40,819 bases of DNA from Pirellula staleyi DSM 6068 (GCA_945870455.1 CAMBSL010000023.1:1-40819), one strand, 5' to 3'. Shown: positions 615-40,350, numbered from the stretch's first letter. Program-made: numbers and translations. Notes: generated by a model not told the origin, from the letters alone.

Positions 615-3119
615 CTACTTGGTTTGAAACATGGGGCTCTGCACGATCTCGTGAATCAACGAACGGAAGCCGTAGTTTATGTCGCGGACATTGTGAACGA
701 TGGTCTCGATCTGCACTTGATCTGCTTTGGTCGGGGCTGCGCCCGTGGAATAGGCAAGGAGCTTTTCCACCAGGGAGCGAGCTAGCTGATCTTTATCATC
801 GAGAATGAGCTTTTTGTACTCGTCAATGTTGGCAAAACGCCGGCCGTCGGGGAGTGCATCACTGGGGTCGACGGCTGGACCGGGACGGACTCGGCGACCT
901 TGGGAGTCTTTCTCTCCTCCGTTGGTGAGGGCACGGTAGTGATCGCGCCAGCCGCCGACGACATCGAAGCTCTCGAGCGCGAAACCGGGTGGATCGATTT
1001 TGCTATGGCAGGAGTTGCAACTGGCGACGTTGCGATGCTTTTCCAATTGATCGCGAATCGTGGTAGCGCCGCGAATATCGGGTTCGATGGCTTCAACATT
1101 TGCAGGCGGTTTCGGCGGCGGCGTTCCCAGGATGCGCTCTAGCACCCATGCGCCACGGAGGATGGGTGAGGTGGTGGTGCCGTTGGCGGTGACTTTGAGC
1201 ACGCTGCCCATCGTAAGCACTCCACCGCGATGACTTTCGGGTGGCAGTGTGATCTTGCGCATCTCCGTCCCTTCGATGCCTGGAATGCCGTAATGCTTGG
1301 CGAGGCGGGCGTTTACGAAGGTAAAGTCCGAGGCGACGAAGTTGGTGATAGAGAGGTCTTGCTTTACGACTTCATCAAAGAATAGCGATGTCTCTTTGAT
1401 CATTGCGGTCTTGAGGATGTCGTCATACTCGGGGTAAAGCGTACGGTCAGGCAAGGTGGCGTCGATGGCGCGAAGGCTGAGCCATTGACCAGTGAAGTTC
1501 TGGTTGAAGGCTTTGGCTTTCGGGTCGTTGAGTAGGCGCTCGACTTGCTGGCGCAGCACATCTGGATCGTGCAGCTTGTTCTCGGCGGCGAGTTGAAACA
1601 GCGACTCATCGGGCATCGAACTCCAGAGGAAGTAGGACAGCCGACTCGCTAGCGCGAAGTCGTCTAGCTTGGTCGGATGGGTCGTCTCTCGTAGGAAAAG
1701 GAAGTTCGGCGAGACAAGCACCGACTTGAGACCGACTCGCATGGCTTGCTCGAATGAGTAGCCTTGATCCAACCTCGATTTCACGCGAGCAAGAAATGGC
1801 TTGATGTCTTCATCCGTCACGGACCGCCGAAAAGCGCGGCGTGCGAACTCGCGAAGGATTCGATCGGCGTCGATCATTGGCTGGGATGAAACGACCTCCA
1901 GGCGATTTGGATCGCTGCCGGATGGGACCTTCGTTTGCTTCAGGTCGCCAAAGATTGCTTGGTGGCTCGGTGGTGGCCAGGACTCGAGCAGTGGCCCTTC
2001 GACATCCACCCATTGAATCACCAAGCCCGGTCCGGTGTACTTGTCGGCACCGACTTTCTCAACAGCTGGCGGCAGTGCGGGCAGGTTATCGGCGATGATG
2101 CGGATGCGGTTCTCCGGCTCAAGTTGTTCCGTAATCTCGATGACGGTCGGCTTGTCGGCGGGCACAGCGTAATAGTCGATCAGTCGCTCTTCGGTCACTT
2201 CTTTGAGTGTGCCTGCGGTAACGTGAAAGTTGACCGGCTTGCCCTCGCTTTGAAAGCCGTATCCCGATATACGAAAGCGATACTTGCCTCGGACATGGCT
2301 GCGGAAGTTCCACATCGTGACGCGAATGTTGGCCGACTCCCAGGAGGCGAATATTGCCACGCCATCGTCCACATGGCGATAGACGCTCCCCGTCGCTTTG
2401 ACCGAGCGTTCTTCTTTCATGTCGAAACGCTTATTGAGTTGCCATGGTTTCGGCTCATTCGCAATGGCCTCATCCAGCACTAGGTCCGCCGCATCCAGGT
2501 AACTGCGCACAAGGAAGGACGAGGTGTGCAGCAATTCAGCGTTGTTATCGAAGCCGCTGGTCGAGGTGTCGGGGGGCAACAGGTCTGACAAATCAACCTC
2601 CACGCCGAGTAGATCTCGCATCGTGTTTGCATACTCCGCGCGATTGAGCCGACGCATCACCACACGTCCCTCTTCCGAACGCCGCGCGACCTCCGCTGCA
2701 TCCGCACGCGCGGTTATCCATTCGACCGCCTCTTTCACTACCGGTTCCGGCGGACGTGGTTCCTCCATGGGCGGCATGTTGCCCGAGTTGAGCTGTTCCA
2801 GCAATGCCGACCACTTCTCACGATTCTTCCGATCGACGAAGTCCGGAGTTAGGTTTTCGATGTTGAACTCGCCGTTGGGATGTGTCCCCGAATGGCATTT
2901 CTGACAGTGCTGGGTTAAGAGCATCTGAGTGGAGGCCATCGATGATTTGTCTTCGGCGATGGATGACTGGGCTTGCACGGGGCAATTGCCTAGACCAGCG
3001 ATAGCGAGCCCCAAGTTCCACAGTCCAAGCCTGGTCATGCGACTCATGCGACAATGTCGGTTCTTCAATAGGAGCGGATGGGTCAAGTGCTGAGACATTT
3101 GCCTGTGGTCATGTTGCAA
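615..3119 (-). CDS. DUF1592/DUF1588/DUF1587/DUF1595/DUF1585-type protein with N-terminal planctomycete cytochrome-C-like motif
   Basis: 834 aa ORF; CQKCHSG near the N-terminus, NRAEYANTMRDLLGVEVD, FLRSRLSYFLWSSMPDE-like segment, RGAWVLERILGTPPPKPPANV, and CNSCHSKIDPPGFALESFD near the C-terminus. Confidence 0.9.
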   Translation of the reverse strand: MQHDHRQMSQHLTHPLLLKNRHCRMSRMTRLGLWNLGLAIAGLGNCPVQAQSSIAEDKSSMASTQMLLTQHCQKCHSGTHPNGEFNIENLTPDFVDRKNREKWSALLEQLNSGNMPPMEEPRPPEPVVKEAVEWITARADAAEVARRSEEGRVVMRRLNRAEYANTMRDLLGVEVDLSDLLPPDTSTSGFDNNAELLHTSSFLVRSYLDAADLVLDEAIANEPKPWQLNKRFDMKEERSVKATGSVYRHVDDGVAIFASWESANIRVTMWNFRSHVRGKYRFRISGYGFQSEGKPVNFHVTAGTLKEVTEERLIDYYAVPADKPTVIEITEQLEPENRIRIIADNLPALPPAVEKVGADKYTGPGLVIQWVDVEGPLLESWPPPSHQAIFGDLKQTKVPSGSDPNRLEVVSSQPMIDADRILREFARRAFRRSVTDEDIKPFLARVKSRLDQGYSFEQAMRVGLKSVLVSPNFLFLRETTHPTKLDDFALASRLSYFLWSSMPDESLFQLAAENKLHDPDVLRQQVERLLNDPKAKAFNQNFTGQWLSLRAIDATLPDRTLYPEYDDILKTAMIKETSLFFDEVVKQDLSITNFVASDFTFVNARLAKHYGIPGIEGTEMRKITLPPESHRGGVLTMGSVLKVTANGTTTSPILRGAWVLERILGTPPPKPPANVEAIEPDIRGATTIRDQLEKHRNVASCNSCHSKIDPPGFALESFDVVGGWRDHYRALTNGGEKDSQGRRVRPGPAVDPSDALPDGRRFANIDEYKKLILDDKDQLARSLVEKLLAYSTGAAPTKADQVQIETIVHNVRDINYGFRSLIHEIVQSPMFQTK

Positions 3120-16225: not shown

Positions 16226-17443
16226 TTACCCAACAACTGCTTTTAAGCTAATTTTCTCGATACCATTCCAGCCATAGCCTCCTTGGTTCCAAAACAGGCC
16301 TCCGTCCATTGGCTGTGTTCTACCGTGCGCATCGACTGCCCGAACCCAAAGTGCATGCTCCCCTTTTTCGAATTGCATTTGCATGGCCCATTCTCGAAAT
16401 GCAAAGGGACCAGCAGAGGGTGCCAATTGAGTCGTTATCCATGTCTGGCCCATATCGCGAGACAACTCGACCGCAGTCAGCGCAGCCGCACCATCATTCC
16501 AGGCCACACCATGAACACGAACCAACTGATTCGCAACGATCGATGAACCATCGACTGGTGCAAAGATGCGGCTATTAATCTTCATGTCAAAATTGGGTTC
16601 ACTATTGTCGAACGTGTACTCGACTTTTTCCCCAGGTGCAATGAGTTGTTTCGGTGTTCGATAGTCCGGCAATTGAAAAAAATTGTTGGTCTCGCGTTCT
16701 TCGAATCGCAATCGCGTAAGCCATTTCACTTGAACATTTCCGTAGTAGCCCGGGATTACGAATCGCAAGGGTCCACCGTGCAAGGCCGGTAACGCATCTC
16801 CGTTGAGTTTGGTTACCAACAAACCGCGAGCGAGTGCGACATCTAACGGGACACTCTTCTCGTAATCAATTTGATCCGACTTTTCTGGTTGATCCGCTCC
16901 TTCGGCGGTCAAATACTTTGCTTCGCTCCGAGAATTGAGCCCGATCGCTTTCACCAATTCGCTGATTCGGACACCAGCAAAACGCACGTTACCGATACCA
17001 CCTTTGTTCCAAGGTGTTCCCTTGATAGGAGAGAGCTTGCTGAACTGAGCACGGTTGTTTCCCGAGCATTGCAGTACCATCTCTATTTCGGTCAGTGGCA
17101 GTTTGCTCAATTCCGACATAGGAAAGCGGATGGGCTTGTCAACCAACCCGACGATTTCTAGTTCACCCTCCATGGGGCGAGGATTCATGTCCGATAACTG
17201 CTTGGCCCCGTGATGATTGCGAACAAAGAGAGCCGAGGATGGAGTCACTCGGCTCGCCGCGAGCAACGCATCAGGCGTCTCTAAAACGAGCGGATCGGCT
17301 GCCACTAACTTGAGCGATGCATCCTTGCCCGTTGGAATGCCGGACTGCGACAGTTCAAAGGCCTTCGCGAGGGAAGGTTCGAAAGCCAATTGCGCGGCAA
17401 TCATCCCGCTTGCGCTGGTTCCAATAAAATGACGTCGATCCAT
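16226..17443 (-). CDS. Sulfite oxidase-like molybdopterin-dependent oxidoreductase
   Basis: 405 aa, Tat-like MDRRHFIGTSASGMIAA; LFVRNHHGAKQL, VLQCSGNNRAQF, GIGNVRFAGVRISELVKAIGL, GGPLRFVIPGYYGNVQVKWLTRL. Confidence 0.88.
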   Translation of the reverse strand: MDRRHFIGTSASGMIAAQLAFEPSLAKAFELSQSGIPTGKDASLKLVAADPLVLETPDALLAASRVTPSSALFVRNHHGAKQLSDMNPRPMEGELEIVGLVDKPIRFPMSELSKLPLTEIEMVLQCSGNNRAQFSKLSPIKGTPWNKGGIGNVRFAGVRISELVKAIGLNSRSEAKYLTAEGADQPEKSDQIDYEKSVPLDVALARGLLVTKLNGDALPALHGGPLRFVIPGYYGNVQVKWLTRLRFEERETNNFFQLPDYRTPKQLIAPGEKVEYTFDNSEPNFDMKINSRIFAPVDGSSIVANQLVRVHGVAWNDGAAALTAVELSRDMGQTWITTQLAPSAGPFAFREWAMQMQFEKGEHALWVRAVDAHGRTQPMDGGLFWNQGGYGWNGIEKISLKAVVG

Positions 17444-30388: not shown

Positions 30389-32710
30389 TCATGCGCTTGG
30401 ATTGCGGTTGAATTTCTGGAATGGCAGACGAACACCTGCTACAAAGAACTGATCTGCCCGCAAAGGGTCTGGCGGCGTGTAGCCAGCTTGGCCAGCAACC
30501 GTTACCACATCGTCTTGGTCCACTCCGTCTCCACTCACCCCAAATCCGCCAACGAGAGTTTTACTCATCCCCTTGTAAATCGGGGTGCTTCCTGGAAAGA
30601 AAACGATGCCATTTTGATTGAAAAGATTGGCAGGGTCTCGGAAATTTCTTGACGCGTTGAACGAATCGAAAGAGAGAACCGTCGCCGTGCTCGAACCGTA
30701 AACCGATGCTGGTAACGGATTGGCGGGTGCCAGATTCTCAGCGGTTGCAGGATTGATTCCGGGCATGGTCAGAATGCTGAAATCGCCAGGACCCGCAAGG
30801 GCTCCGGTCGGATAGCGTGGACCCGCAAGAAAACGGAATGTTCGATTCGTGAAAGCGGTCTTGCGGGGCACATCTCCAATCGCATCGTTGTTTGCATCGA
30901 CTTGATCGGCTGCAACCAATCGGTCGCTTGCATAGTAAGAGGTGTTGCGGGCCTTGGCGACAGCGACATCGATGGAGAAGATCGTGGCGTCTGGCATTCG
31001 ATAGAGACCTAAAACTTCACCCGTTGAGTCGGTAACGGCGAAAACCATTTTCGTTTTCGCACCTGCCTTAAACGTTTTCAAATCGAGTCGAATGGCGGCG
31101 CGTGTCTTATTCGCTTCGCTGATCCCTTGCTGAATAATCGTGTTTACGTCGGAAGCAAAAACCGCATCAACGCTCGAACCGTGAGGATTGACAAGCCAAC
31201 CTTCAGGCACGCTCTGCCCTGGCAAAGCAAGCGCTCCACCCGGCGTTACTTTCTGATCGACGCCAGAATTGGTGCCGCGTCCACCGCCGTTTCTTCGACC
31301 TACCTGGAATACCTGTTGTTGGCCTGTGGCTGTATTCGCCCGAGTCGGGGTTGGTCCATAAATCTCGAGAGTGATGCCTACCAAGTCGATGCGCCCGTTG
31401 ATGCCTCCGAATTCACCTCGAGAAGGTGCCGTCCCTTCGAACTCCTTCACTGGCATCGGATTGGTTCCAGCCACGGTGCCACCTGCGGCAAAGAATGCAA
31501 TGAACTCGGCTTCAAGTGCTTTGGGTGCATTCAATCGCGACAGCTCAGATTGTGGACCTGCTTTGCCGCGGGCGGACGCATGAACAAAGCCCTGCTCATA
31601 AGTTGCGTAGCCGTCTTTTCCCGGAAAGAAAACGCCAATACCTCCAACGAGAACCGGTTTGCCATTGCTGAACTTATAGAGTGGTATCCCGCCAGGCATG
31701 GTCGCAATGCCTCTACTTTGTGCAAAGGGTAGTCTGCCCGATTGTGTGCCGTACGACTCTGGAAAGAGCTTCATGTAGTCTTTGGCAGCGGTTGGCACTT
31801 GGTCCAAATTGACATTGAATCGTGCACTCAACGCGATGTCATCGACAGTACCCTTGATACCGTCAGCCCCTGAGTTCGACTTCCCATCGCGACTTTGATG
31901 CTCGATTGCGAACAAGTCGACCAGGGGTGTCGATGTAATTTGAGGAGGGAAGTGCCCGCCCAGTCCAATCGGTGCGACAAAACCCGGTCCACGCTTGTTC
32001 GAATTCAAGTCTTGGATGTTTGGGTTCGATTCCACTTCGCGTTGGGTAATGGTCGATTGGCTAATGAATCGAACGGTGCGCGACGTTATGGGTGCTTCGC
32101 CATTCGAAAAGAACGCGGCCGTTCTGGCTTTCGCAACCGCCCCATCGATGGCGAACACAAGATCGCTTTCGCGTCCAGCGAATGTATTGACGACATCCTG
32201 TTCGGTTCTCACACCCAAGATCTGACCCGCCCGATCGACGATTGCGATAATCGCGTCGTTGCTAGTCGTTGCTCGCGATGCACGCTCAAGAAGCTTCTTT
32301 ACTTCCAAGTCTGATATTTGAAGAGATGCCGGTTCGGCTTCTGCAGGTTCCGCCATGTCGAGTGGATCGGGTGCAGTTGACACGTTGGGTTCTGGATTCA
32401 GGAGCGTTTCATCGGACTCGTTGAAAGCATTGATGACCGATAGAGCATCGAGGGCCGTTACGCTGCCATCCGCATCCACGTCCAGATAGACGCTTGACTC
32501 CCCATCGCTATAGGTGATGGTGTCGATTCGATAGGAAGAGCGATTCAGAACATTGATGACGATCAATGCATCCAATGGAGAAAGCTGCGAATCGCCATCG
32601 ACGTCCTGTGGGAAGATCGTGTTGTGAATGGGAGCGACCGCCATCAAGTCGCGAGCTTCCAACCGCTCTAAACCCAACTTTCGTTTGCTTTTTCGATTGC
32701 GATTGAACAT
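30389..32710 (-). CDS. Secreted dockerin-like protein with two HbpS/GlcG (DUF336)-like heme-binding domains
   Basis: 773 aa; LGLERLEARDLMAV N-terminal motif; dockerin-like DVDGDSQLSPLDALIVINVLN and DVDADGSVTALDALSVINAFN; two HbpS-like segments (IAIVDRAGQILGV...DLVFAIDGAVAKARTAAFFS and VFAVTDSTGEVLGLYRMPDATIFSIDVAVAKARNTSYYAS). Confidence 0.8.
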   Translation of the reverse strand: MFNRNRKSKRKLGLERLEARDLMAVAPIHNTIFPQDVDGDSQLSPLDALIVINVLNRSSYRIDTITYSDGESSVYLDVDADGSVTALDALSVINAFNESDETLLNPEPNVSTAPDPLDMAEPAEAEPASLQISDLEVKKLLERASRATTSNDAIIAIVDRAGQILGVRTEQDVVNTFAGRESDLVFAIDGAVAKARTAAFFSNGEAPITSRTVRFISQSTITQREVESNPNIQDLNSNKRGPGFVAPIGLGGHFPPQITSTPLVDLFAIEHQSRDGKSNSGADGIKGTVDDIALSARFNVNLDQVPTAAKDYMKLFPESYGTQSGRLPFAQSRGIATMPGGIPLYKFSNGKPVLVGGIGVFFPGKDGYATYEQGFVHASARGKAGPQSELSRLNAPKALEAEFIAFFAAGGTVAGTNPMPVKEFEGTAPSRGEFGGINGRIDLVGITLEIYGPTPTRANTATGQQQVFQVGRRNGGGRGTNSGVDQKVTPGGALALPGQSVPEGWLVNPHGSSVDAVFASDVNTIIQQGISEANKTRAAIRLDLKTFKAGAKTKMVFAVTDSTGEVLGLYRMPDATIFSIDVAVAKARNTSYYASDRLVAADQVDANNDAIGDVPRKTAFTNRTFRFLAGPRYPTGALAGPGDFSILTMPGINPATAENLAPANPLPASVYGSSTATVLSFDSFNASRNFRDPANLFNQNGIVFFPGSTPIYKGMSKTLVGGFGVSGDGVDQDDVVTVAGQAGYTPPDPLRADQFFVAGVRLPFQKFNRNPSA

Positions 32711-32961: not shown

Positions 32962-34941
32962 GTGACTTCGTTCGATTTATTTTTGGGAATCTGTTGGCTT
33001 GTGTTCAAGAAACCGTACACAGCTATCTTTGGATGGATTTTGTGGGTAAGTCCCATTTGCGATTGGAAGATCGCGTTTGGGCAAGCGTCCGCAGTTAGTA
33101 CTCCTTCGAACTCGCCGAATGAGACCCATCGTTTTTCGTTTCGGGATGGAGGGCTTGGACAATCCAACCCGCCGACTGAACCGAAAAGCCTTGCGTCACC
33201 AGATAGTGAGAATAGTGTTCTTCCGCCATTCGAATCGTACCCGCCAGAAACAGCACCGTACTTTCGAACTCCCTTTCAAGCGCCACTTGGCTTCACGGGC
33301 CCAAGCTCAGTCGCGCCAACTGAGTCGCAGAGTACCGGCCACTTCGTTCCGATCGAAGATCGATGGCGAATCGGCTCACCTACCTGGGATCGATACGGCA
33401 AGGGCCATCCCGTTGGGGATGACTACCCGTTTGTGCAGGGTGCTTGGTACGATCCGTTCAACCAAAATGTGCTTAAGGGCGATTTTCCAATTGCCGGACA
33501 AGACACATTCCTTAAGTTCCAGTTCAGACAGCTAAACCTTTTCGAGTATCGCCAAACGCCCATTCCAACCACGCCGTTTGAAGCGACGCAAAATCCATCC
33601 GAAAATGAGTTTTTTGGCAACCCGAACCAGTTCTTTTTCACGCAGACCAACTCCGCCGCGTTCGACCTTTTCAAAGGAGATGCTGCATTTAAGCCTGTTG
33701 ATTGGCGGCTGAGGATGAACGTGATCTTTAATCAGAACTATCTCAAGGTTCAAGAGTTGGGGGTCGTCTCTCCGGACGTTCGCAAAGGCACGAATCGCCA
33801 CAAGACGGATTGGGCGATTGAGGAATGGTTCTACGAAACGAAGATTGCGGACATGAGTCCCAACTACGATTTCATTTCGGTGCGTGCTGGTTCGCAGCCG
33901 TTCACCAGTGACTTTCGCGGCTTTATCTTCTCCGATATCAACCGCGGAGTCCGACTCTTTGGAAATCGACTGAGCAACCAAGACCAATACAATGTCATCT
34001 TTTTCGACCAAACCGAAAAGGATACGAACAGCTTGCTCAATACATTCGATGACAGACACCAAAATACGCTGATCATGAACTACTATCGGCAGGACTTTGT
34101 GTTTCCCGGTTACAACACCGAACTCAGCTTCCATTACAATCGCGACAAGGCGAGTACGGAGTTTGACCGAAATGGTTTTCTGGTCCGGCCTGACCCGGTT
34201 GGAGTATTCTCACCTCACCAAGTGGATTCGTACTATCTCGGTTGGGCAGGCAATGGGCACATCAATCGCTACAACATCAGCCACGCATTGTATTACGTCA
34301 CGGGTACCGACGAGTTGAATCCGATCGCCGGCCAGCCTCAAACGATCAGTGCTTTTATGGGAGCTCTCGAGCTATCCTACGATCGCGATTGGGCTCGATT
34401 TCGATGTTCCTACTTCTATGCATCCGGAGATAGCGACCCCAATGACAGCCGTGCTACCGGCTTTGACGCCATCTTCGACAACCCGAATTTTGCAGGCGGT
34501 GAATTCAGCTATTGGAATAGACAGCAAATCAAATTGTTCGGCGTTAATTTAGTGAATCGACAAAGCCTTTTGCCTAACTTGCGGAGCAGTAAATTTCAGG
34601 GGCAAACGAATTTCGTTAATCCTGGTATTCAGCTCGTCAACACGGGCTTTGATGCGGATCTGACAACGAAGACCAAACTCATCACAAATGCCAACTATCT
34701 TTGGTTCAACCACACAGCCCCATTGGAGGCGTTGGTTTTCCAAAACAACATTCGCAGCCAAATCGGTCTGGACTTGAGTGTTGGGTTTGAATACCGTCCG
34801 TGCCTCAACAACAACGTAATCTTTGTCAGTGGCTTGTCAGGCCTCATCGTTGGCAACGGATTTCGCGACTTGTATCAACCGCTCAATGGGCATGTTAGCA
34901 ACCTTGCGGCGGGATTTTTCGAGGCCGCTTTCGAGTATTAA
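32962..34941 (+). CDS. Putative outer-membrane beta-barrel (porin-like) protein
   Basis: 659 aa; N-terminal signal-like region, alternating aromatic/hydrophobic strands (e.g. YNTELSFHYNRDKASTEFDRNG, LELSYDRDWARFRCSYFYASGD), terminal aromatic ...FFEAAFEY; two bases before the multiheme cytochrome gene. Confidence 0.65.
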   Translation: MTSFDLFLGICWLVFKKPYTAIFGWILWVSPICDWKIAFGQASAVSTPSNSPNETHRFSFRDGGLGQSNPPTEPKSLASPDSENSVLPPFESYPPETAPYFRTPFQAPLGFTGPSSVAPTESQSTGHFVPIEDRWRIGSPTWDRYGKGHPVGDDYPFVQGAWYDPFNQNVLKGDFPIAGQDTFLKFQFRQLNLFEYRQTPIPTTPFEATQNPSENEFFGNPNQFFFTQTNSAAFDLFKGDAAFKPVDWRLRMNVIFNQNYLKVQELGVVSPDVRKGTNRHKTDWAIEEWFYETKIADMSPNYDFISVRAGSQPFTSDFRGFIFSDINRGVRLFGNRLSNQDQYNVIFFDQTEKDTNSLLNTFDDRHQNTLIMNYYRQDFVFPGYNTELSFHYNRDKASTEFDRNGFLVRPDPVGVFSPHQVDSYYLGWAGNGHINRYNISHALYYVTGTDELNPIAGQPQTISAFMGALELSYDRDWARFRCSYFYASGDSDPNDSRATGFDAIFDNPNFAGGEFSYWNRQQIKLFGVNLVNRQSLLPNLRSSKFQGQTNFVNPGIQLVNTGFDADLTTKTKLITNANYLWFNHTAPLEALVFQNNIRSQIGLDLSVGFEYRPCLNNNVIFVSGLSGLIVGNGFRDLYQPLNGHVSNLAAGFFEAAFEY

Positions 34942-34943
34942 TA

Positions 34944-37900
34944 ATGATCCGACGTGCGAACGAGTCCTACGTTGGGTTGGCGTCCTTTGTCGTGGGCCTG
35001 CTCTTAGTCCATTCGCTCCTTGGTTCGTCGAATTGCATTGCGCAATCCGTTAGGCCGCTCACCCCACCGGGTGGCAAGTTTCACCAGCCAACCGTTCCTG
35101 CCAGCAGTGGAGAAGATCCCTGGGGACCAGCCAGACACCTTGGCATCGCGGGCAATGCTTCCTATCCGATCCCAAACGAACTCCTGCATACCGATTTGTA
35201 TCGGCAGTCAAAGCAAGAGGCGAATGCCAAAAGCGTTTCCTGTATTCAATGCCACACCGACGTGGGCAGCATGCATCCACCCAACACGGTCTCGATCGGT
35301 TGCACCGACTGCCATGGTGGAAATGCGAACGACTTCTCCAAGAAGGGCGCTCACATTCAACCACGCTATCCTGAGATGTGGAGCACTTCTGCGAATCCCG
35401 TTCGAAGTTATGCCCTGCTCAATCATGAGAGTCCCGAGTTCGTGCGATTCGCAAATCCCGGCGATCTTCGTGTCGCACACATCGCGTGTGGCCAATGCCA
35501 TGCCAACGAAGTGTTGCAACTCAGAAAAAGTATCATGACGCACGGTTGTATGCTTTGGGGCGCTGCCATCTATAACAACGGCGGCTCGCCAGAGAAATGG
35601 TCTCGCTATGGAGAAAGTTACTCCATGCACGGCAATCCGCAACGGCTCCAAACCGTTCCGGCACCTTCCCCGTACGAGATCGATCGAAAAGGGGTTCTCC
35701 CATTTCTTGATCCGTTGCCACGCTTTGAAGCGTCCCAGCCTGGCAATATTCTTCGAATCTTTGAACGGGGCGGTAGATTCCGTTCCGAAATCGGAATACC
35801 GGAACGCCTCGAAGAACCTGGCCGTCCTCGCGAGCGACTCAGCACGCGCGGGCTCGGGACCGAAAACAGAACCGACCCTGTGTTCATTGGTCTTCAGAAG
35901 ACCCGATTGCTTGATCCAACCCTGAACTTCCTAGGAACGAATGATCATCCAGGTGACTATCGCAGCAGCGGTTGCAGCGCGTGCCACGTTGTTTACGCAA
36001 ACGATCGTTCGCCCACCTCCTCGGGCCCGTTTGCCAAATATGGCCATCGTGGACGAGCTGCATCCGAGAAAGATGATTGGGTTAAGTACATCGACCCGAC
36101 CATTCCAAAGAACGAATCCGGACATCCGATTCAACACATGTTCACCAACAGCATGCCAACCAGTCAATGTATGGTTTGTCACATGCACCCAGGTACAAAT
36201 GTTCTCAACTCTTATCTAGGCTACATGTGGTGGGACAACGAGACGGATGGGCAGTCCATGTATCCAAAAGAACAGCACGATCCAACCGCCGAGCAATTGG
36301 TTCAAGCTTCGATGTCCAATCCAGAAGAAGCTGCTGCCAGAGGACTATGGGGTGATCCAGAGTTTCTCAACAATGTGAGCGACCTCAACCCAAAACTGAA
36401 CCACACTCAATTTGCAGATTTTCATGGACATGGATGGGTTTACCGAGCCGTTTTCAAAAAAGACCGAACGGGAAAGTTGCTTGACCATACGGGAAAAACA
36501 GTTGAAAGCCCAACGACAAAAGATCTGATGGCCGCAGTAGCGCCGTCGGAACAATTTGAGAAGATCCATGGGAAACAACGCGATGGTGTGCCTGTTCATA
36601 TGATGGATATCCACATGGAAAAGGGGATGCACTGCGTCGACTGCCACTTCTATCAAGACGGACATGGGGACACAAAACTCTATGGCGAAGTGCGTGCGGC
36701 TATCGAGATCCAATGCATCGATTGCCATGGTGATGCCAGAGCCTCGCTTGTTGACAAAGTCGAGCAACTACTCAAAGCGGGCCAGCCACCCAAACTACCT
36801 ACCAGCGGCCCCGCATCCGCAAAAGAACCAACCAATCTCCTGGCTCTGCGAACGGCCTTTGGACAGCCTCGCTTTGAGATCAAACGAGCACCGGGCAAAA
36901 AACCAAAGCTCATCCAACGCAGCAACGTGGAAAAGGACCTCATTTGGGAAGTGACTCAAACCGCAGACACCATCGATCCCCTCAGCGAGGAATACAACCC
37001 AAAGAGCCATATCGCAAAAACGGTTCGATTGGATGACGACGGCGCGATGCGTTGGGGAGACACATTGCCCAATGAAAAATGTGCCCATCAAAACAATAAC
37101 ATGAGTTGTATCGCTTGCCACAGCTCTTGGAATCCAAGTTGCTTTGGATGCCACCTGCCGCAAAAAGCAAATATCAAAGCCCCGAATCTGCACGGGCTGG
37201 GGGAGGTCTCTCGAAATCGAATTTCCTACAACTTTCAAACTCTGAGAGACGACGTATACATGTTGGCTCGCGATGGTAATGTCACGGGAAACCGCATCGG
37301 ACCCGCCCGCAGTTCATGCGCAATTCACGTCGGCAGTTACAACGGCAATCGCGAATCCGTCTATGTTCAGCAACAGACGATCAGCGGCGAGGGTCTGAGC
37401 GGCATCGCCTTCAGCACGAATGTCCCGCACACTGTCCGAGGTGGTCCTGACTGGAAAACAGCACCACCCGGTCATGCGTCACCCGGCACCTCGGAAACGA
37501 AATCCTGTACCGACTGTCACGTCTCCGTCAACAACGACAACAACGCCATCATGTCTCAATTGCTCATGCAAGGGACAGGGTATACCAATTTTGTGGGCCG
37601 CTATTGCTGGGTTGGGGCTGGAGAGCATGGCCTGGAAGGAGTCGTTGTAACGGAACAGAGCGAACCGCAAGCGGTACTCGGCAGCTCGCTGCATTCGATA
37701 GCCTACCCGGAGAACTACAAGGAACATCTCAAACATCATCGAGAACTAGAACATGCGCACGAACATCCAGGTCGAGATATTTTGGAGGTTTTGAGCCCAA
37801 AATATCGGAAACCTGAAGTGCTCTCGCTGCAACATCGGGGTGAATTCCTTTACGCAGCCTGCGGCGAAGGCGGCCTGCGAGTTTTCGACATTGCATTCAT

Positions 37901-39023
37901 CGATCACAAGGCATTCTCAGAAAGAATTACCACCGCGCCGGTTTCACCGCTGGGGCAGCGTCTCTATGTTCGAACCAAGTTCGCGACCGCTGTAGCAGCC
38001 CCAACGACCATCGCTCCCGACCCGACACGAACCCATCGACCGGAGAACTTCGAATCCCCCGTCCATCCGCTTTACGCGTACATTTACGTAACGGACAAGG
38101 TCGAGGGGTTGGTCATGGTCAGCGCAGCAACGCTGCTCGACGGAAACCCATCCAACAATTTCTTGGAGCGAGGCGTCACCTTCAACCCCAACAATATCCT
38201 GTGCGGCGCCAAAGCCATAACGATCGCTGGGCATTATGCCTACATTTGTTGCGATGCCGGACTCGTTGTGGTTGACCTCAGCAACCCAAAACAGCCCGTT
38301 GTTTGCTCCGTCGTCGGAAACGATGTACTTCATCATCCCAAAAGTGTCGCGGTGCAGTTCCGATACGCGTTTGTGTGCGATGAAGAAGGAGTCAAGGTTC
38401 TAGACGCAACGGAACTAGCCTCCCCGCAGCATGTCCATACTGTCCCGTTGCATGAAGCGAACAGCATCTACCTAGGGCGCACGTATGCCTATGTGGCGGG
38501 AGGCAAGGAGGGGCTAGTCATACTCGATATCACCAACCCAGAATTGGCTTTCATTGATCAGATCTACAATGCAGGTGGACAAATCGACGATGCGCATGAC
38601 GTGAAGCTCGGTATCACCAACGTTAGCCAGTTTGCGTACGTTGCAGACGGGAAAAACGGACTGAGAGTTCTTCAATTGACCAGTCCAGAGCTACCTGGGA
38701 ACGATGGATTTTCACCGCGACCGAACCCGTGCTTGATCGCAACTCGCAAGCTTCCAAAAAATGGTCATGCCTTGTGCGTGTCGCGGGGCGTAGATCGTGA
38801 CCGAGCGGTCGACGAATCGGGCAATCAAATCGCCGTATTCGGTCGCGTGGGTGCAAGGCCGCTCAACAAGGAAGAGTCAACGCGAATGCACCGCCGGAAA
38901 AATGGTAGCCTTTTTCAAGTGAGCGACGACCCATTCGACCCGCGAACGTACCAGTTCCCAGTCGAACTCAGGCCATCCCTCCGAACCGGGGAGCAAGCTC
39001 TTCCGCCCATCGTTCGCAGATAA
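34944..39023 (+). CDS. Multiheme c-type cytochrome (10 CxxCH motifs) with C-terminal LVIVD-type beta-propeller
   Basis: 1359 aa; CIQCH, CTDCH, CGQCH, CSACH, CMVCH, CVDCH, CIDCH, CIACH, CFGCH, CTDCH; then LRVFDIAFID, LVVVDLSNPKQPVV, VKVLDATELASPQHV, LVILDITNPELAF, LRVLQLTSPEL repeats. Confidence 0.88.
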   Translation: MIRRANESYVGLASFVVGLLLVHSLLGSSNCIAQSVRPLTPPGGKFHQPTVPASSGEDPWGPARHLGIAGNASYPIPNELLHTDLYRQSKQEANAKSVSCIQCHTDVGSMHPPNTVSIGCTDCHGGNANDFSKKGAHIQPRYPEMWSTSANPVRSYALLNHESPEFVRFANPGDLRVAHIACGQCHANEVLQLRKSIMTHGCMLWGAAIYNNGGSPEKWSRYGESYSMHGNPQRLQTVPAPSPYEIDRKGVLPFLDPLPRFEASQPGNILRIFERGGRFRSEIGIPERLEEPGRPRERLSTRGLGTENRTDPVFIGLQKTRLLDPTLNFLGTNDHPGDYRSSGCSACHVVYANDRSPTSSGPFAKYGHRGRAASEKDDWVKYIDPTIPKNESGHPIQHMFTNSMPTSQCMVCHMHPGTNVLNSYLGYMWWDNETDGQSMYPKEQHDPTAEQLVQASMSNPEEAAARGLWGDPEFLNNVSDLNPKLNHTQFADFHGHGWVYRAVFKKDRTGKLLDHTGKTVESPTTKDLMAAVAPSEQFEKIHGKQRDGVPVHMMDIHMEKGMHCVDCHFYQDGHGDTKLYGEVRAAIEIQCIDCHGDARASLVDKVEQLLKAGQPPKLPTSGPASAKEPTNLLALRTAFGQPRFEIKRAPGKKPKLIQRSNVEKDLIWEVTQTADTIDPLSEEYNPKSHIAKTVRLDDDGAMRWGDTLPNEKCAHQNNNMSCIACHSSWNPSCFGCHLPQKANIKAPNLHGLGEVSRNRISYNFQTLRDDVYMLARDGNVTGNRIGPARSSCAIHVGSYNGNRESVYVQQQTISGEGLSGIAFSTNVPHTVRGGPDWKTAPPGHASPGTSETKSCTDCHVSVNNDNNAIMSQLLMQGTGYTNFVGRYCWVGAGEHGLEGVVVTEQSEPQAVLGSSLHSIAYPENYKEHLKHHRELEHAHEHPGRDILEVLSPKYRKPEVLSLQHRGEFLYAACGEGGLRVFDIAFIDHKAFSERITTAPVSPLGQRLYVRTKFATAVAAPTTIAPDPTRTHRPENFESPVHPLYAYIYVTDKVEGLVMVSAATLLDGNPSNNFLERGVTFNPNNILCGAKAITIAGHYAYICCDAGLVVVDLSNPKQPVVCSVVGNDVLHHPKSVAVQFRYAFVCDEEGVKVLDATELASPQHVHTVPLHEANSIYLGRTYAYVAGGKEGLVILDITNPELAFIDQIYNAGGQIDDAHDVKLGITNVSQFAYVADGKNGLRVLQLTSPELPGNDGFSPRPNPCLIATRKLPKNGHALCVSRGVDRDRAVDESGNQIAVFGRVGARPLNKEESTRMHRRKNGSLFQVSDDPFDPRTYQFPVELRPSLRTGEQALPPIVRR

Positions 39024-39048: not shown

Positions 39049-40350
39049 TCAATTGATCCAAAAAGCGAAAAAGGGAAGATTGCCCTGGAAAGCGTCGGAC
39101 AATTCATTCCAAGCTTGGAAGTCGATTAATTTACCGGACTCGATGAATGGGGCCACGCCAGTCCCCTGAATCCACAACACCAAGTCAAAGGTTTGAGGAT
39201 TGGTAAAAACTTTGCGCAAATTGATGCCAAGCTTTGAGTTGAACTCGACATTATTACTCCGACCAAAAAAATTGAAACTGTTCCTGTTCTTAACACCTCG
39301 CCAGAATGGCAACAACTCTTTTCCCTGGAGTACCAATTCCACTTGATTCAAAACTCGCTCCCAATCGTCTCCCATCCGATTACCTGGTCGACCAGCGAGC
39401 ACGATGGAAGTCTGGTTTCTCCCTGGGAGCCATTCGCGATCATTATCGGTCTCTTCTCGAATCAGCCGCCACGTTTCCCGACTCAGTTGAATGACTTGCT
39501 CAAAATGCTCCAGCGATTTCTTCATCCGATCAGGCTCGATTACTTGAAAGTTGATCAAATGGATGAATGCGATAAAATCAAAGATCTGATTAGACGCCCA
39601 TTCAATTTCATCCAATTCGTCAGCAAAAAAACCATAGGGAGATTGAACGCGAGGAAAGAAAAGGTGCGCGGTTCTTTCGAATGCGCTTTGCCAGTCATGA
39701 GCCAATGCAAACTGAACCACACCAGAAAGGACGTTGATGTAGCCGCGCAACCAAAGGACATCTGCATCGTCAAACGCGAACTCAATCGAATTGACACCGA
39801 CATTGTTGTTGGCAACACCAGCCGGTACCGAAGACCAGCCCATAATCGCGCCCCAAACTGCTTCGTTCGGCGTCGATTTGCCGTTGCTATCCAAATCAAG
39901 GCTTATCTCATTGATGGCGATAGGAATCTTGATTCCGTTCGGCTTGAAATCCGACAGGGTTTTTTCTGCTTTTGACAATCGATCCAACAGATTTTGCAGT
40001 ACGGTTCGCGCTCTAGCATAAGATATTTCTTCTGGATTAGGATTGTTCGGAATCGGCATGCGCATGAGGATGTTTCGATTGGGCCGCGCAGGATCCAGAC
40101 CATAACGATAGTAGTCTTGCCCCAGTCCTTCGATGGCTCGCAAGAACTGGAGGACACCCAAAGAGACTCGGATGCTGTTGTCTTGAGGAGTCTTTTGGAG
40201 CAATCCGTCAAATTCTTTCTCGCCTGCAACAAGTTGACCCTCCCTCACGTACCCGCGGAATTTTTTATAGTTGGCGTTGTCGTCCCCGAAGGTCCTATCC
40301 GACGCAGAAAATAGCGCGAAAAGTACCAATGCAATGATTCGAAGGTGCAT
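39049..40350 (-). CDS. Secreted hypothetical protein, possibly TPR-like N-terminus
   Basis: 433 aa; signal peptide MHLRIIALVLFALFSASDRTFG; EFDGLLQKTPQDNSIRVSLGVLQFLRAIEGLGQ; convergent with the cytochrome gene. Confidence 0.7.
   Translation of the reverse strand: MHLRIIALVLFALFSASDRTFGDDNANYKKFRGYVREGQLVAGEKEFDGLLQKTPQDNSIRVSLGVLQFLRAIEGLGQDYYRYGLDPARPNRNILMRMPIPNNPNPEEISYARARTVLQNLLDRLSKAEKTLSDFKPNGIKIPIAINEISLDLDSNGKSTPNEAVWGAIMGWSSVPAGVANNNVGVNSIEFAFDDADVLWLRGYINVLSGVVQFALAHDWQSAFERTAHLFFPRVQSPYGFFADELDEIEWASNQIFDFIAFIHLINFQVIEPDRMKKSLEHFEQVIQLSRETWRLIREETDNDREWLPGRNQTSIVLAGRPGNRMGDDWERVLNQVELVLQGKELLPFWRGVKNRNSFNFFGRSNNVEFNSKLGINLRKVFTNPQTFDLVLWIQGTGVAPFIESGKLIDFQAWNELSDAFQGNLPFFAFWIN

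Follow-up and report, generated by a model that had tools for sequence, protein, structure and literature searches.

A conserved decaheme cytochrome-LVIVD beta-propeller fusion in Planctomycetota, a predicted variant of the ExtM-type multiheme cytochromes

In a 40,819-nucleotide (nt) stretch of DNA from Pirellula staleyi DSM 6068 (GCA_945870455.1 CAMBSL010000023.1:1-40819; here called the window), an intact open reading frame at 34944-39023 on the plus strand encodes a 1359-amino-acid (aa) protein in which a decaheme cytochrome is fused to an LVIVD beta-propeller. Based on sequence comparisons, we conclude that this fusion is genuine and conserved, that its gene is associated with a coherent set of electron-transfer genes, and that it is a variant of the ExtM-type multiheme cytochromes; its function is put forward here as a hypothesis. 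A first-pass annotation of the window had proposed the covalent joining of a multiheme carrier to an LVIVD propeller, which was borne out by ten CXXCH motifs, a Pfam LVIVD match, and a confident AlphaFold propeller within the one reading frame. The gene and the features of its product are listed below, with the heme motifs taken from a motif scan and the homolog alignment.

34944-39023 (+): fusion gene, decaheme cytochrome/LVIVD beta-propeller, 1359 aa (motif count, Pfam, AlphaFold, Foldseek)
34944-35045 (+): signal peptide, about aa 1-34, AxA-Q type cleavage (judged by eye, no predictor)
35241-35255 (+): heme motif 1, CIQCH, aa 100 (kept in 72 of 73 homologs)
35301-35315 (+): heme motif 2, CTDCH, aa 120
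35487-35501 (+): heme motif 3, CGQCH, aa 182 (CX4CH in some relatives)
35973-35987 (+): heme motif 4, CSACH, aa 344 (column of heme 5 in dodecaheme relatives)
36168-36182 (+): heme motif 5, CMVCH, aa 409
36633-36647 (+): heme motif 6, CVDCH, aa 564
36714-36728 (+): heme motif 7, CIDCH, aa 591
37107-37121 (+): heme motif 8, CIACH, aa 722
37140-37154 (+): heme motif 9, CFGCH, aa 733
37506-37520 (+): heme motif 10, CTDCH, aa 855 (column of heme 11 in dodecaheme relatives)
37809-38726 (+): six LVIVD blades, aa 956-1261 (Pfam, AlphaFold, Foldseek, unit profile)
38793-38894 (+): conserved tail, aa 1284-1317, DRAVDESGNQ...ARPLNKEE (profile match to propeller-less ExtM-like cytochromes)

The ten heme motifs span nt 35241-37520, essentially where the first-pass annotation had placed them (about 35241-37521), whereas 1000 composition-preserving shuffles of the protein contained 0.024 CXXCH motifs on average and 2 at most. 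Across 73 aligned homologs, each of the ten sites is present in 72 or more, with heme 3 taking the form CX4CH in some lineages. Long gaps separate the motifs, namely 157 aa between motifs 3 and 4 and then 150, 126, and 117 aa before motifs 6, 8, and 10. The large insert between motifs 3 and 4 that had been singled out as unusual does exist, but comparable gaps occur elsewhere in the protein, and the spacer is a feature of the family rather than an oddity of this member: relatives carry an extra heme there, which was lost in this clade.

The C-terminal part of the protein is clearly LVIVD-like. The full protein matched Pfam LVIVD (PF08309) at 71.9 bits, well above the cut-off of 20.2, and the C-terminal piece alone scored 82.5 bits; no other LVIVD protein was found in the genome. 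The boundaries of the six units come from a profile built from these same six units, which is circular as a test though useful for this purpose. In an AlphaFold2 model of aa 99-1298, computed from an alignment of 63 homologs, the repeat region had a predicted local distance difference test (pLDDT) score mostly above 90, and Foldseek matched it to WD40-type propellers of the PDB (best E value, 3.6e-7; CIAO1 TM-score, 0.63 on target length). The beta-propeller anticipated from the sequence is accordingly modelled with a WD40-like fold in which six blades are clear, and strands at aa ~887-903 and after aa 1262 suggest a probable seventh, possibly formed by a divergent LVIVD unit, that would close the ring. 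Homologs share, on average, 68% pairwise identity across the heme core and 65% across the propeller, which also holds fully invariant stretches in the homolog alignment. From these alignments, the propeller is under constraint similar to that on the heme core, which argues for a working surface of some kind; it may be a docking, binding, or catalytic platform.

The closest described relative of the heme core is ExtM (NF040943), the dodecaheme cytochrome of the Geobacter extHIJKLMNOPQS genes, whose ExtI/ExtM cluster has been described previously (PMC5877670; PMC6148476). Strict membership in the ExtM equivalog was rejected, since the window protein matched the model weakly, at 56.7 bits against a cut-off of 800. 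Profile searches recovered two bridging groups, however: one of dodecaheme proteins that are ~800 aa long and have no propeller, the other of decaheme proteins that carry LVIVD repeats and mostly measure ~1000-1050 aa (the short form, as opposed to the long form represented by the window protein). Representatives of both groups scored 195 to 236 bits against ExtM, and a more distant 11-heme relative (L138) scored 67 bits. In a joint alignment, 10 of the 11 core heme columns of the ExtM-like dodecaheme proteins are present in the long form, which comprises hemes 1, 2, 3, and 5 to 11 of the dodecaheme set and is missing hemes 4 and 12, while the short form is usually without hemes 10 and 12. The strongest distal-ligand candidates are six non-motif histidines (aa 137, 394, 398, 557, 715, and 829) that occur in each of the three groups. 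These comparisons indicate that the heme core is a diverged relative of dodecaheme ExtM, linked to it through intermediate sequences. In a tree, the long, short, and dodecaheme groups are cleanly separate and joined by long branches, such that the long and short forms may have gained the propeller once or separately. Two propeller-bearing relatives (L168 and L170) have 11 CXXCH motifs and lack only heme 12; they possibly represent an intermediate state.

The position of the propeller relative to these proteins is informative. Between hemes 11 and 12 of the dodecaheme relatives lies a stretch that closes with LDQLVTRSGKQ...DRPLNEKER. A profile of this stretch found its best long-form match after the propeller, at aa 1284-1317 of the window protein (hidden Markov model match of 14.9 bits over ~34 residues; domain E value of about 1e-4 in a set of ~90 proteins), where heme 12 is absent, and it matched the same place in the other long forms among the matches listed. 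Profile-profile comparison of the tail (hhalign) gave E values, each referring to one comparison, of 2.7e-7 for the long form and 4.8e-6 for the short form. Because of this tail comparison, the description of the propeller as a simple C-terminal addition was abandoned in favor of an insertion before a conserved tail that is common to propeller-less ExtM-like cytochromes. Insertion of the propeller between the tail and heme 11, with loss of heme 12, is the simplest reading and is well supported by these alignments rather than proven, given the shortness of the tail match.

A domain search and a phylogenetic profile had been among the checks proposed by the first-pass annotation, and the fusion proved to be recurrent. 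A locus scan with one genome per species gave at least 174 encoding loci, and the best 80 of these 174 encode proteins with 58 to 95% identity to the window fusion over nearly the full length. The record titles of 78 of these 80 name Planctomycetota taxa; the other two read "bacterium" and "Bacteroidales." The long form was present in 44 of 394 sampled Planctomycetota genomes, most of them metagenome-assembled, and spans many families, with isolates including Rubripirellula obstinata, Roseiconus nitratireducens, Neorhodopirellula pilleata, Aporhodopirellula aestuarii, and Rhodopirellula maiorica. Contig ends excepted, no propeller-less copy was noticed among the long forms. Four contigs titled "Candidatus Kuenenia stuttgartiensis" (L061, L067, L085, and L097) also carry a long fusion (~61 to 65% identity); these titles are probably nearest-name labels rather than marks of true anammox genomes.

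In other Planctomycetota, the shorter decaheme-LVIVD proteins (e.g., L137, L144, and L145) share the core, propeller, and tail of the long form but are mostly without its large inserts; they retain heme 4, and the AlgE-like barrel gene described below was not adjacent in those inspected. Some have EF-hand-like repeats or a lipobox, and in L135, L143, L145, and L172 the EF-hand-like repeats are extra and C-terminal. In L178, and apparently L179, the short-form gene lies downstream of a gene for a Tat-signal protein resembling DUF1501.

Two genes upstream of the fusion recur beside it.

32962-34941 (+): outer-membrane beta-barrel, 659 aa, ~17-18 strands, AlgE-like; stop codon 2 nt before the fusion ATG (model, Foldseek)
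30389-32710 (-): HbpS-like plus dockerin protein, predicted extracellular, divergent (domain match; neighbor kept in 41 loci)

No Pfam family matched the barrel protein, whose C-terminal residue is aromatic. The 15 best solved-structure matches of its model (pLDDT, 67) were all AlgE (E value, 3e-15), and MtrB was absent from its 50 best fold matches. In 47 of the 67 loci with enough flanking sequence, the first gene upstream of the fusion encodes a barrel homolog, usually within ~100 nt. The barrel family occurs in 43 of the 44 fusion genomes and in 4 of the 350 others, counts that share ancestry, such that Fisher P values are descriptive and overstate independence; barrel and fusion lie on the same contig in 35 of the 43 genomes. 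In many Planctomycetota, the divergent gene, of the heme-degrading HbpS family, stays beside the barrel and fusion genes. Its product would suit an extracellular heme- or metal-binding role, and the gene may belong to the barrel-fusion system. The gene on the other side (39049-40350, minus strand) was excluded from the system, as it is not conserved beside the fusion.

In relatives, this neighborhood also encodes two c554-type cytochromes, a decaheme cytochrome anchored in the membrane by its N terminus, a cytochrome-b-like membrane protein in which four histidines are invariant, NuoEF, and a cyclic-nucleotide/4Fe-4S protein. In the present genome this set is split from the fusion: contig C69 carries, in one run, NuoEF, the cyclic-nucleotide/4Fe-4S protein, a c554-type cytochrome, a relative of the decaheme cytochrome with 9 CXXCH motifs, and the cytochrome b, and contig C39 carries two further c554-type cytochromes. 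Since these genes are found in cis in relatives, with the whole module directly downstream of the fusion at locus L080, we tie the diheme-cytochrome-b/decaheme/c554/NuoEF module to the fusion even though it lies on another contig here. With weak partial matches excluded, the diheme cytochrome b was found in 33 of the 44 fusion genomes and in 1 of the 350 others. The module on C69 corresponds to L174:330-8771, a NuoEF fusion with multiheme genes; a description of such an NADH-dehydrogenase/multiheme module was not found in the open literature.

Both the fusion locus and the ExtM cluster have a porin-like gene, and the fusion shares with ExtM a colinear heme core, through the intermediate sequences, and with its dodecaheme relatives the tail motif. 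They differ in the missing hemes 4 and 12, the inserted propeller, the AlgE-like barrel in place of ExtI, and NuoEF/diheme-b partners in place of Rieske/cytochrome b. No rhodanese or selenoprotein gene stands beside the fusion, and neither do the ExtH/I/KL/O/P/S neighbors, whose place is taken by the AlgE-like barrel and HbpS-dockerin genes (the rest of the genome was not searched for them). As the first-pass annotation had suggested, the protein is unlike MtrC/OmcA: TIGR03507 was not matched, and the MtrA/DmsE model TIGR03508 gave 13.5 bits against a cut-off of 192.2, such that membership among MtrC, OmcA, and MtrA was rejected. MtrCAB and OmcB resemble the present locus in the tandem pairing of genes for an outer-membrane barrel and a multiheme cytochrome, but the barrel here is of the AlgE type rather than the wide MtrB type, and a single fused propeller-cytochrome stands where MtrA plus MtrC are found there. 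Propeller proteins are also encoded among multiheme cytochromes, as separate polypeptides, in the Desulfovibrio ferrophilus cytochrome island DFE_0448-0465, which we liken to the fusion by description and which has been proposed to act in extracellular electron transfer (PMC8322314).

We propose, at about even confidence, that the fusion acts at the outer envelope as the last carrier of a chain running from NAD(P)H to multiheme cytochromes, in which the propeller serves as a docking or substrate platform. In this scheme, the NuoEF/FeS (NADH-dehydrogenase-like) module would take electrons from NAD(P)H, the four-histidine diheme cytochrome b would carry them across the inner membrane, and the membrane-anchored decaheme and c554-type cytochromes would carry them across the periplasm to the fusion near the outer membrane. 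Standing in place of the heme-12 end of the ancestral wire, the propeller would hold a partner or substrate at the exit heme, with the barrel, an extracellular acceptor, or a redox protein as candidate partners; the AlgE-like barrel itself may be a solute channel or docking site. Of the two directions, outward electron flow from NAD(P)H would be the more likely.

Several observations weigh against this proposal. A barrel of ~18 strands would be too narrow to surround a decaheme wire in the way that MtrB surrounds MtrA. No lipobox was seen on inspection of the window protein, such that surface anchoring is not indicated; relatives have isolated lipobox candidates only, and lipoprotein anchoring was rejected. 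The heme region of the AlphaFold2 model is partly of low confidence (mean pLDDT for the whole model, 64.7), and 11 of the 44 fusion genomes have no clear cytochrome b match. The shared ancestry behind the co-occurrence counts and the preponderance of metagenome-assembled genomes in the sample point in the same direction.

The main rival casts the protein as an enzyme, a multiheme oxidoreductase that would convert a soluble compound, with an active-site heme for a small oxyanion or a nitrogen or sulfur compound, a propeller that shapes the substrate channel as in hydrazine synthase, and a barrel that passes substrate or product. We regard this as possible, though clearly less probable than the terminal-carrier role. 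ExtM relatives have been annotated to selenite/tellurite-reduction operons (PMC5877670), AlgE-type barrels are solute channels, many non-motif histidines are invariant, and long non-heme segments are 80 to 90% conserved. The region of hemes 6 and 7 weakly resembles NrfA nitrite reductases (E values of 0.07 to 0.1), but the similarity is local, covering ~60 to 70 residues, and full-length NrfA homology was not found. Likewise, the alpha subunit of hydrazine synthase from anammox Planctomycetota joins a beta-propeller to c-type hemes (PMC12758564), yet it has two hemes and another domain order, and homology was not detected: no hydrazine synthase chain in the PDB matched the window protein at an E value of ≤1. 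No homology to any full enzyme in the PDB was detected, and the heme motifs are all CX2CH or CX4CH, with no CXXCK-type active-site motif.

A porin-cytochrome conduit proper, in which the cytochrome part threads the barrel and delivers electrons to the surface as in MtrAB, seems unlikely. The tandem barrel and multiheme genes and their near-perfect co-occurrence would suit it, and analogous porin/multiheme clusters have been proposed for Verrucomicrobia (PMC5615132); on the other hand, the fold matches are to AlgE rather than MtrB, a barrel of AlgE size argues against threading by a decaheme domain, and the protein is large and carries a ~35-kDa propeller. Least probable is that the propeller is merely a passive adhesion or spacer domain on a general periplasmic electron buffer, even though cell-surface proteins were the setting in which LVIVD repeats were originally described (PMC2447325), since the propeller equals the heme core in conservation and, contig ends excepted, no long form was noticed to lack it.

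More tentatively than the terminal-carrier role itself, we suggest that these genes make up an unrecognized, Planctomycetota-wide chain from NAD(P)H to the outer envelope, used even by bacteria cultured as heterotrophs. Its members would be NuoEF/FeS, the diheme cytochrome b, the decaheme and c554-type cytochromes, the ExtM-propeller fusion, and the AlgE-like barrel, with the inserted propeller having taken over from the terminal heme of an ExtM-type wire as the docking site for a substrate or partner. If so, a large and abundant phylum would have outer-membrane or extracellular electron transfer unrelated to the Mtr and Omc paradigms, in a system open to testing in cultured carriers such as Rubripirellula obstinata and Roseiconus nitratireducens. 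The domain insertion would also be a natural experiment in how a multiheme wire gains a docking surface, for which relatives with and without the propeller and with differing heme subsets provide the material. A description of a multiheme-LVIVD fusion was not found in the open-access literature; most subscription papers and all preprints were outside this scope, such that the absence of an earlier description is not certain.

Promoter and terminator scans gave signals no more frequent than in shuffles. Elsewhere in the window, a gene at 16226-17443 (minus strand) encodes a molybdopterin-binding oxidoreductase with a Mo-co dimerization domain (sulfite-oxidase type), with no evidence of a link to the fusion, and far from the fusion, at 615-3119 (minus strand), lies a gene for a Planctomycete-specific cytochrome with PSD2-PSD5 and PSCyt3 domains.

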